This document shows, in pieces, positions 23,336 through 26,634 of a DNA stretch of 32,604 nucleotides. This DNA comes from an uncultured Prevotella sp. (GTDB lineage: Bacteria; Bacteroidota; Bacteroidia; Bacteroidales; Bacteroidaceae): the NCBI GenBank assembly GCA_905234355.1, contig CAJOHP010000070.1, forward strand, positions 1 through 32,604, given 5' to 3'. Below the pieces are notes generated by a model that was given only the letters and a program-made list of their open reading frames with translations, did no database searches and was not told the DNA's origin. The position numbers and the translations under genes are program-made. Each line of letters opens with the position of its first letter. Within the stretch, counting starts at the first letter, position 1.

Positions 23336-24110
23336 GGAAACGCACGACAAACCATGCGTGGAGCATGAACGTCTGCAGATGTCCGTAGTGGTGTGCCATG
23401 ACGCGGTAGCGCTCCATGAGCGAGGCGCGCCGGTGGCGTGTGGTCTGTCCCTCCTCGGCATAGTGGGCCACGACCATGCCCACGTTGCACAGTGTCAGGC
23501 CCATGCGCTCGGCCTCGACCATGACGCGTATGCACCAGTCCACGTCGGCCGAGTAGCGGTAGCGGGTGTCATACTGCACGTTCTTGGCCAGGTCGGTGCG
23601 TGCGTAGAAGGCCTGATGGCACACGAGCATGCCCTGCCTGAAGGAGCGCCATGAGAGCTGCTGTGGCGGTCTGAGCCGTCGCGGGTGCAGCACATGACCC
23701 TCGCTGTCGGTGATGAGCGTGTCGCCGTAGAGCACGGCGGGCAGCTCGGCACTGGGCAGCTCGGCCAGACGGCATCGCCGCACGATCTGCTCAAGCGTGT
23801 CGGGCGAGGGAAAGGCGTCGCCCGCGTTCATATAGACAATATAGTCGCCCGAAGCCTGCGTGAGCCCCTTATTCATGGCGTCGTAGATGCCGTGGTCGGG
23901 CTCCGACTGCAGGATGACCTTATGATGGCTGTCCGAGAGGTCGCTCTGCTGCTTGTATGCCTCGGCCAAGGACATGGTCTGATCGGTGGAGGCGCCGTCG
24001 ATGATGAGGTGCTCCACGCCCTCGTAGGTCTGGTCGAGCACACTCTGGAGCGTCCGTGGGAGCACGGAAGCGGCGTTGTAGGTGATGGTGACAACGGTAA
24101 ATCGTATCAT
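23319..24110 (-). CDS. Glycosyltransferase family 2
   Basis: FTVVTITYNAASVLPRTLQSVLDQTYEGVEHLIIDGASTDQT; SEPDHGIYDAMNKGLTQASGDYIVYMNAGD. Confidence 0.94.
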   Translation of the reverse strand: MIRFTVVTITYNAASVLPRTLQSVLDQTYEGVEHLIIDGASTDQTMSLAEAYKQQSDLSDSHHKVILQSEPDHGIYDAMNKGLTQASGDYIVYMNAGDAFPSPDTLEQIVRRCRLAELPSAELPAVLYGDTLITDSEGHVLHPRRLRPPQQLSWRSFRQGMLVCHQAFYARTDLAKNVQYDTRYRYSADVDWCIRVMVEAERMGLTLCNVGMVVAHYAEEGQTTRHRRASLMERYRVMAHHYGHLQTFMLHAWFVVRFLCRMK

Positions 24111-25381
24111 AGCATGAAGTGTTTCTGTGCCAGCAGCTCCTGGTAGAGTTCTATATAGCGCAGGGCCACGCTGCTCTGCGAGTAGGTGTGCTGCACCTTG
24201 CTCACGGCAGCGGCGGCGAGCTGCGGGCGGTCGGCCTCGCAGAGTGTCCAGTAGAGCCCGCGGGCCAGGTCGTCGCTGTCGCGATAGGCGGCCACATAGC
24301 CGTTGCGCCGGTGGTCTATCTCCTCGGGGATGCCTCCCACCTTGAACCCCACGCAGGGCACGCCGCAGGCCATGGCCTCCATGATGGTGTTGGGCAGGTT
24401 CTCGCTGAGCGAGGGCAGCACGAAGAGGTCGCAGGCCGAATAGACCTCGGCTATGGCGGCCTCGTCGGTCACGTAGCCCAGCGGATAGGCAGGAAAGGGC
24501 AACTCGGCCCCCACCTCGTCGGCATTGGAGCCGAGGAGCACAAGACCCAGCCGCGAGAGCAGGTCGGGATGGTCGGCCGCGAGCTTGCGGCAGGCCTCGA
24601 CGAGGTAGGCCATGCCCTTGTTGGCATTGGTGAGTCGCTGGCAGACAAAGAGCATGAGCAGCTTGTCCTTCGGCAGCTGCAGGCGCTGCCGCGCCTCATC
24701 CTGGTTGCGGCGGAAGAATACGCGGGTGTCTATGGCGTTGGGGATGGCCGTCACCTTGTGCCCGCGCAGCAAGGCACTGGCCCTTGCCTCGCCCTCGAGC
24801 CAGCGGCTGCAAGCCACAAAGGCGATGGCGCCCTCGCTGAGCATGCGCTCCTTGCGACGCCACACACGGACGGAGAGGTCGCTCTCCGAGCCTCCGCCGG
24901 GCAGATACTTGCAGTAGTGACAGCCGCGGGTGAAGTGGCGACAGCCCAGCGACAGATGGCACAGCGAGCTGGCAGGCCACAGGTCGTGCATGGTCCAGAC
25001 GACAGGCTTGCCCGACCGCAGCACCTTCTGTATGCCAGAGAGCGAGAGCATGCCCTGGTTGATCCAGTGCAAGTGTATGACGTCGGCCTGCCGGAACTCG
25101 TCCAGCCGGGTGATGTCGAAGCCACTGTTGGCTATGTCTATGTCGAACAGGTGGTCGCGCTGACCGTGCAGGCCGGCCAGCACCGTGAGCCGCTCCCGCA
25201 GGAAATGGCGCCGCGGCCACCAGCCGTGGCCCAGGCTCACCACGCGCGGGTCGTCGCTCTGCCGGTCGCGCACCAGCATGCGCGCCTGCACACCGTTGTT
25301 GCAGAGCGCATCCATCAGCCGCCAGGCAGCCACGGCAGCACCGCCCGCACGCTCGCTCGTGCTTACTATCAGTACTCGCAT
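24107..25381 (-). CDS. Glycosyltransferase family 4-like
   Basis: ERAGGAAVAAWRLMDAL, HLHWINQGMLSL, DLFVLPSLSENLPNTIMEAMACGVPCVGFKVGGIPEEI; 4-nt overlap with downstream GT2. Confidence 0.93.
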   Translation of the reverse strand: MRVLIVSTSERAGGAAVAAWRLMDALCNNGVQARMLVRDRQSDDPRVVSLGHGWWPRRHFLRERLTVLAGLHGQRDHLFDIDIANSGFDITRLDEFRQADVIHLHWINQGMLSLSGIQKVLRSGKPVVWTMHDLWPASSLCHLSLGCRHFTRGCHYCKYLPGGGSESDLSVRVWRRKERMLSEGAIAFVACSRWLEGEARASALLRGHKVTAIPNAIDTRVFFRRNQDEARQRLQLPKDKLLMLFVCQRLTNANKGMAYLVEACRKLAADHPDLLSRLGLVLLGSNADEVGAELPFPAYPLGYVTDEAAIAEVYSACDLFVLPSLSENLPNTIMEAMACGVPCVGFKVGGIPEEIDHRRNGYVAAYRDSDDLARGLYWTLCEADRPQLAAAAVSKVQHTYSQSSVALRYIELYQELLAQKHFML

Positions 25382-25409: not shown

Positions 25410-25525
25410 CGGATTTTTCTTCATACAGCCAAGCTACTGAGCAGAAAAAGCACGCTGTTTACGCACACAAAGTTTGATTTACGTCAAGAATAGCGAGTTT
25501 TTACGCAATAACCGACCAGAAAGTA

Positions 25526-25556
25526 TTGCCAGGTTCGGAAAATCGTCGTACATTTG
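25526..25556 (+). promoter_or_regulatory. Promoter of candidate sRNA
   Basis: TTG (25526-25528)-N20-TACATTTG (25549-25556). Confidence 0.6.
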
Positions 25557-25561
25557 CATCG

Positions 25562-25846
25562 TCAAAAGGTTAATAGATTGTTTTAGGTTAGTAGTAATAT
25601 TTATAGTTTTAGGTTTTTAGTTATTGGTAAAAGAAAGTTTTCAACTGTAGGGGTCGCTGTGAAGCTCCCATTTAAACTTTCAATTTTTTGGTAACAATTT
25701 TAGTAGAGATTCCCAACTGTCTGTCAAGTGCGACAGCAGCGGAATCGAAGCTAAAAGAGCCAGAAATTGTTTTCAACTGAAAAGGATTTTTAGTTAAACA
25801 TAGGCTTGTAATGCCACTGCCCGCGAGGGTAGTGGCATTCTTTTTG
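25562..25846 (+). ncRNA. Candidate standalone non-coding RNA of about 285 nt
   Basis: Promoter at 25526-25556, strong terminator at 25810-25845, no plus-strand ATG between -7 box and terminator, flanked by minus-strand genes. Confidence 0.55.
25810..25845 (+). terminator. Intrinsic terminator with GCGA tetraloop
   Basis: AATGCCACTGCCC-GCGA-GGGTAGTGGCATT-CTTTTT, 13-bp stem. Confidence 0.88.
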
Positions 25847-26058: not shown

Positions 26059-26634
26059 TCAGTAGAGCAGGAGCAGTCCGGCAAAGCCTGCCATGAGAAT
26101 CATCTTCACAGGATTGACCTTGAGCACCAGTGTGCCGAAGAAGGTGGCCAGAAAAAGTCCCACGCTGATGAAGAACTGCCAGCTGTTCTCACTCGGTGTG
26201 GAGAAGTTGTCGCGCGTGCAGAGCAGCAGCGTGGCGGCAGCAAGCAGGCCGACGACGGCGGGCCGCAGACCCATGAATACCGACTGCACGGTGGGCGACT
26301 TCATGTAGCGCAGGAAGAGCTTGCTGATGAGTATCATCAGGATGAACGACGGCAGCACGAGCGCCACCGTGGCCGTGGCCGAGCCGAGCACGGCCATGGG
26401 CATGGAGTAGCCTGCATTCTTCACCGCGGTATAGCCGGCAAAGGTGGCCGAGTTGATGCCGATGGGCCCGGGCGTCATCTGGCTGATGGCCACAATGTCG
26501 GTAAACTCCGACGCCGTCATCCAGTGCCAGTGCTCCACCGTCTCGTGCTGGATGAGCGACAGCATGCCATAGCCGCCGCCGAAACCGAAAAGGCCAATCT
26601 CGAAAAAGGTGATGAACAGGTAAAGGTAGATCAT
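26059..26634 (-). CDS. Chromate transporter family protein (ChrA half)
   Basis: LFGFGGGYGMLSLIQHETV, DIVAISQMTPGPIGINSATFAGY. Confidence 0.93.
   Translation of the reverse strand: MIYLYLFITFFEIGLFGFGGGYGMLSLIQHETVEHWHWMTASEFTDIVAISQMTPGPIGINSATFAGYTAVKNAGYSMPMAVLGSATATVALVLPSFILMILISKLFLRYMKSPTVQSVFMGLRPAVVGLLAAATLLLCTRDNFSTPSENSWQFFISVGLFLATFFGTLVLKVNPVKMILMAGFAGLLLLY

Follow-up and report, generated by a model that had tools for sequence, protein, structure and literature searches.

The window analysed here is a stretch of 32,604 nucleotides from an uncultured Prevotella sp. Between a glycosyltransferase gene (24107-25381) and a chromate-transporter-like gene which ends at 26059, both on the minus strand, it contains a plus-strand transcription unit with its own promoter and terminator. 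The promoter consists of a TTG at 25526, a spacer of 20 nt and TACATTTG at 25549-25556. The terminator is a stem of 13 pairs with a GCGA loop at 25810-25839, followed by CTTTTT, and there is no ATG between the predicted start and the terminator stem. A first-pass annotation had listed these elements, the minus-strand flanks and exact internal repeats of GTTTTAGGTT (at 25580 and 25606) and GTTTTCAACTG (at 25637 and 25769), and had read the unit as a candidate stand-alone small RNA (sRNA); each is present as described. The GTTTTAGGTT pair is conserved family-wide, and the GTTTTCAACTG pair is found in close relatives only. The features are as follows.

25456-25469, unstranded: second palindrome-like box TGTTTACGCACACA (consensus TGTKTNCGNAVACA), 93 nt upstream of the -7 box
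25474-25487, unstranded: FNR-type palindrome TTGATTTACGTCAA (pattern TTGAYNTANRTCAA), 75 nt upstream of the -7 box
25526-25556, plus strand: promoter of the Bacteroidota type, with TTG at -33, N20 and the -7 box; conserved in the family
25562-25846, plus strand: predicted transcript of about 285 nt, bounded by promoter and terminator
25564-25641, plus strand: 5' arm of 78 nt, free of C and with UAG/UAGGUU repeats; the part best conserved in sequence (alignments A1 and A3; hits of the 5' block model R1)
25633-25681, plus strand: closing stem of the central hairpin in the clade of the window, predicted by folding; GAAAGTTT (25633-25640) pairs with AAACTTTC (25674-25681)
25650-25671, plus strand: central hairpin with a GUGA loop; 8 pairs, 6 with both sides changed
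25708-25746, plus strand: extra hairpin GATTCC..GGAATC, in close relatives only (folding and alignment A1)
25780-25805, plus strand: conserved, unpaired 3' block AAAAGGATTTTTAGTTAAACATAGGC (alignment A1)
25810-25845, plus strand: intrinsic terminator with its T tail; 10 of the 13 pairs have both sides changed

The predicted folding energy of 25562-25846 is -83.6 kcal/mol, compared with -60.5 kcal/mol for dinucleotide shuffles (z = -5.2). The TTG at -33 is kept in 171 of the 174 copies which have a -7 box. Because of this fold, the retention of the TTG and conservation across the genus, the unit is regarded as beyond chance. The region 25562-25846 on the plus strand is almost certainly a stand-alone sRNA gene, given as its predicted transcript.

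Structure and distribution of the family

The genus is taken here as Prevotella sensu lato, with Segatella and Hallella included. A first DNA search of 60 genomes found homologues in nearly all relatives in the genus, often in several places in each. R1, a model built from the sequence of the 5' block alone (match threshold E <= 1e-4), matches the 5' domain of the RNA in 140 of 149 sampled genus genomes, mostly in one copy and in up to five; in searches of more than 40 genomes the filters drop the weaker hits, and the E-values that such a model gives are approximate. Several box-driven UAGGUU-repeat relatives are too diverged for the 5' block seed pattern, and R1 copy numbers are probably undercounts. 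Ten named genomes carry homologues, with 1 to 7 copies each; carriers include Prevotella bivia, P. denticola, P. jejuni, P. veroralis, P. corporis, Segatella copri, S. baroniae and Hallella species. In S. copri there is a single close copy, together with two or more diverged relatives that are box-driven. In a family-wide R1 search 11 of 121 genomes matched, all of them in this genus, one of the 22 covered. An order-wide search outside that genus gave weak matches only, in six genomes; four of these were read and none resembled the family. On this evidence the family is confined to Prevotella in the broad sense and is multicopy. A literature search for the sRNA sequence returned no match.

Members have a common layout: promoter, nearly invariant 5' block, variable middle with a small hairpin, 3' block and terminator. 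Other subtypes have the 5' block in common and differ in the downstream part. The window copy is a long version, the extra hairpin accounting for its greater length; a compact version is about 170-200 nt, and relatives range from about 170 to 300 nt. In many species the neighbourhood is the same, with a divergent glycosyltransferase upstream and ispF together with a PorV-like gene downstream (gene names were read from translations, without a domain search). S. copri has identical neighbours, but there the RNA is in the opposite orientation and retains its own promoter. The P. nigrescens copy falls where no gene is annotated, flanked by genes of the CinA and MaoC families, in a collection whose gene table is incomplete. 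At four loci (L005, L007, L026 and L027) and on several other contigs the assembly ends at or near the element, as often happens with repeats.

The 5' arm is the longest C-free run in the 32.6-kb window; the next C-free or G-free run is 36 nt. It has 34 invariant columns among 27 sequences of different subtypes, and no conserved helix was found in it in the full alignment. Conservation of sequence without a helix is what would be expected of an open binding arm, whether for RNA or for protein. UAG occurs seven times in the arm of the window copy, where dinucleotide shuffles predict 4.4 (189 of 5000 shuffles have at least seven); most 74-nt arms have 7-10.

The covariation test used 24 full-length members, in which the two consensus hairpins (the central hairpin and the terminator) are paired in 96.2% of cells, and 16 of 21 pairs have both sides changed. 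The covariation score is 0.562, compared with 0.270 for shuffled controls and no more than 0.133 after the partners were slid; the slid control favours the structure because the structure was derived from these same sequences, but the margin is large nonetheless. The stand-alone sRNA reading is thus supported by covarying hairpins, a conserved promoter and terminator, the lack of a conserved ORF and retention in differing genomic places and orientations. The sequence-based checks proposed with the first-pass annotation agree with it. Relatives are conserved across the genus with compensatory changes in two hairpins, and Rfam 15, including the 6S families, gives no accepted match to the window RNA with or without cut-offs, so that its statement of no known family is correct for that release. 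It named the unit a candidate sRNA; the genus-wide, multicopy nature of the RNA and the fixed regulatory box upstream escaped it.

Other readings can be set against this structure and distribution. The locus might be a short mRNA, with a small peptide encoded behind an unstructured leader. Some members do have an ORF of 13-21 codons (e.g. METVRLPF...), but its start codon, length and end are all variable, and a search across members found no conserved ORF; several have no ATG ORF at all. Their sequence varies through compensatory base-pair changes, and the AUG of other members belongs to a pair that covaries (A-U in 11, U-A in 11). A short mRNA is accordingly very unlikely. Still less probable is a 6S-like RNA which binds RNA polymerase. 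The family is stand-alone, nearly universal in the genus and 170-300 nt long, which would suit such an RNA, but it has no long interrupted hairpin, its conserved pairing being an 8-bp hairpin and the terminator only; it matches no 6S family and is multicopy in many genomes. The genome also has a copy of Bacteroidales-1 (RF01693), which we take to be the proposed 6S counterpart, elsewhere (C57:17298-17492), and the Bacteroidales-1 covariance model has no match at the window. Several copies per genome and a number of contigs which stop at the element would suit a mobile or repetitive element with a promoter. This we find the hardest to credit, as the neighbourhood is conserved in many species and so are the regulatory box and the structure. 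No family match was found in the viral contigs and phages searched, and a plasmid collection gave two, both on very large Prevotella replicons.

Upstream palindromes and a candidate regulator

A TTGA-N6-TCAA box (consensus TTGATTTANRTCAAGAA) lies upstream of 167 of the 174 non-redundant copies which have a -7 box, nearly always at -73 to -75, whereas shuffled upstream regions give a mean of 0.8; the pattern was picked after several loci had been seen, and 167 is not a count of events because related copies are not independent. Chance is nevertheless very unlikely, since the position is fixed across differing subtypes and neighbourhoods. The TGTKTNCGNAVACA box is present in 90 of the 174 copies, mostly at -92 to -94 and in some at -16 to -26; shuffled regions have none. 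It lies about 19 nt upstream of the TTGA-N6-TCAA box in some subtypes and over the -33 region in others, and occurs elsewhere in Prevotella intergenic DNA as well.

A strict form of the box, TTGAYTTANRTCAA, has four sites in the genome of the window, compared with none in a backwards control. One is ahead of the window RNA. Another is 74 nt before the -7 box of the FopS sRNA (G000:C30:17730-17794; RF04319, 77.6 bits), at a distance from the -7 box equal to that in the window, making it a candidate regulator site common to FopS and the window family. The remaining sites (C54:26600 and C159:3749) precede a glutamate dehydrogenase-like gene, with a -7 box at 104 nt, and a rhamnulose-1-phosphate aldolase-like gene, with a -7 box at 77 nt; both names were read from translations.

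The spacing recurs in other genomes. Among 33 distinct box sites in five genomes (that of the window and four named ones), 18 have a -7 box 72-76 nt downstream, compared with 0.8 expected from other distances. Most of these 18 stand in front of non-coding RNAs, namely UAGGUU-rich RNAs, a tRNA, FopS or GibS-like RNAs and two rRNA leaders. Diverged, C-poor transcripts with UAGGUU repeats are box-driven in S. copri (L285, L293/L296), H. multisaccharivorax (L273, L277), P. denticola (L272) and P. bivia (L279). In H. multisaccharivorax two rRNA operon promoters and one tRNA promoter (L284, L297 and L295) also have the palindrome, placed 73-74 nt ahead of the -7 box. It was not seen at rRNA promoters in three Segatella records or in Prevotella oral taxon 299, and rRNA promoters were rejected as general targets of the box.

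A conserved palindrome at a fixed upstream distance is the arrangement expected of a CRP/FNR-controlled promoter, and a CRP/FNR-type regulator is suggested because the half-site is TTGAY. The published consensus of Cur, wwwTATGTTnTAnAACATAwww (PMC6989115, PMC3878776), differs from this half-site, and Cur was rejected as the regulator of the box. Judged from these patterns, the sRNA gene is likely to be controlled through the TTGA-N6-TCAA box.

Relation to known small RNAs

FopS is the closest comparison. Like the window RNA it belongs to a multicopy sRNA family of the same order, with a canonical TAnnTTTG promoter, a C-poor open 5' arm and a 3' terminator. FopS, however, is about 65-70 nt long and has a seed, GUUUUUCAUAGUAUUAGAUUUAAGG, which covers a start codon, whereas the window RNA is predicted at 285 nt (relatives about 170-300 nt), lacks such a seed and has an extra hairpin. 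The FopS model has no match in the window, either at its gathering threshold (56 bits) or at E up to 10. A copy at 77.6 bits is present elsewhere in the same genome, and FopS therefore occurs in Prevotella.

GibS (RF04182) also has an open U-rich 5' arm, a hairpin and a terminator. Some family members align with it over the full model at 30-33 bits, and relatives score no higher; the window gives no match, and the cut-off is 115 bits. Better GibS-like sequences are found at other loci of the same genomes; that of the window has two, at 48.5 and 40.9 bits, the latter being its FopS copy. BTnc231 (RF04180) likewise has a CGUGAG-capped hairpin and a terminator. Its full-model alignment to the window reaches 20.4 bits (E 0.078 for 561 bases) and that to the best relative 28.3 bits, compared with a cut-off of 80.4 bits, and the UAGGUU arm is absent from the BTnc231 consensus. 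The traits common to GibS and BTnc231 (open arm, CGUGAG-type hairpin and terminator) may reflect either a common design or distant descent. At three loci (L209, L210 and L216) there are longer GibS-like RNAs whose hairpin is closed around CGUGAG (GUCGUGAGAC, AUCGUGAGAU) and is similar to that of the window family; a shared design is possible.

SrcF is a colonization sRNA of S. copri (El Mouali et al. 2024, doi 10.1016/j.chom.2024.09.008, as cited through PMC11814227). It comes from the same genus group, and S. copri carries family members; SrcF could be one of them. If so, part of the family is already known experimentally. The family is a nearly universal RNA of the genus which is absent from Rfam 15 and for which boundaries, structure and a fixed upstream box can be given. 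Few regulatory RNAs have been described in Prevotella and Segatella, although these bacteria dominate many human gut communities and the rumen.

Possible modes of action

The window RNA has the marks of a trans-acting sRNA: its own promoter, an intrinsic terminator and a conserved non-coding structure. Taken as a whole, the locus is probably a trans-acting sRNA gene under a CRP/FNR-type regulator, with an open arm that base-pairs with mRNAs. A CRP/FNR-family protein at the upstream box would switch the gene on, and the RNA would fold into an open 5' arm, a hairpin capped by GUGA or GUGAG and the terminator. The arm, unable to pair strongly with itself, would then pair with G-poor stretches of several mRNAs and change how these are translated or how stable they are; FopS acts in this way through another seed. 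Pairing was chosen as the mechanism because the arm is free of self-structure and because the co-regulated FopS acts by base pairing (PMC11697453). Base pairing by the C-free arm is the likeliest mode of action but is itself put forward tentatively, as an analogy with FopS. Complementarity of the arm to 599 start regions is no better than that of 12 shuffled arms, and no complementary hexamer among those tried is enriched in 387 intergenic upstream regions; these tests covered DNA around fetched loci, which is only part of any genome, and starts were called mechanically. The SusC leaders in the genome of the window have no complementarity to the arm that is evident by eye. A usual seed is also far shorter than the conserved arm, whose repeated motif fits protein binding too.

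CsrB-type decoy RNAs carry a repeated short motif, GGA, in hairpin loops. The window family likewise has a repeated short motif, but it is UAGGUU and is located in an open arm. A protein decoy or platform of this kind, in which the UAGGUU and UUAG repeats of the arm would titrate an RNA-binding protein from mRNAs, is a serious rival because the target tests gave no support to base pairing; overall it seems somewhat unlikely. The UAG-rich arms agree with it. So do the diverged box-driven relatives, in which the motif repeats with changing spacing (up to nine UAGG within 300 nt); in S. copri L293 a module of about 115 nt is duplicated in tandem. The motif of B. thetaiotaomicron RbpB is reported as GUAGGAUA (PMC12119571). 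This sequence is found in several close relatives (L002-L005) but is absent from the window's own copy. The obvious candidate partners, RRM_1 proteins, were found in only two of the 24 genus genomes searched, whereas the RNA is nearly universal, and the idea of an RRM protein as a universal partner is not supported. No RRM_1 gene was found in the genome of the window, which is 75% complete. As the searches recovered RRM proteins from few of these genomes, a decoy partner would probably be some other protein. A wider version would place the family in a larger class of C-free UAGGUU-repeat RNAs, which a single dedicated CRP/FNR-type regulator would control along with FopS as an sRNA regulon. The family would then serve as a multi-site decoy for an RNA-binding protein replacing Hfq, CsrA or RbpB in Prevotella. 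This version is unlikely.

The family offers a concrete entry to post-transcriptional control where an RbpB-type protein appears mostly missing. Outside the genus, 16 genomes of the same order were searched and RRM_1 proteins were found in 10, compared with the two of 24 within it; the RbpB type appears to have been lost from most of the genus. FopS, an RbpB-associated sRNA family of Bacteroidaceae, is carried on C30 of the window's genome, where RRM_1 was not found.
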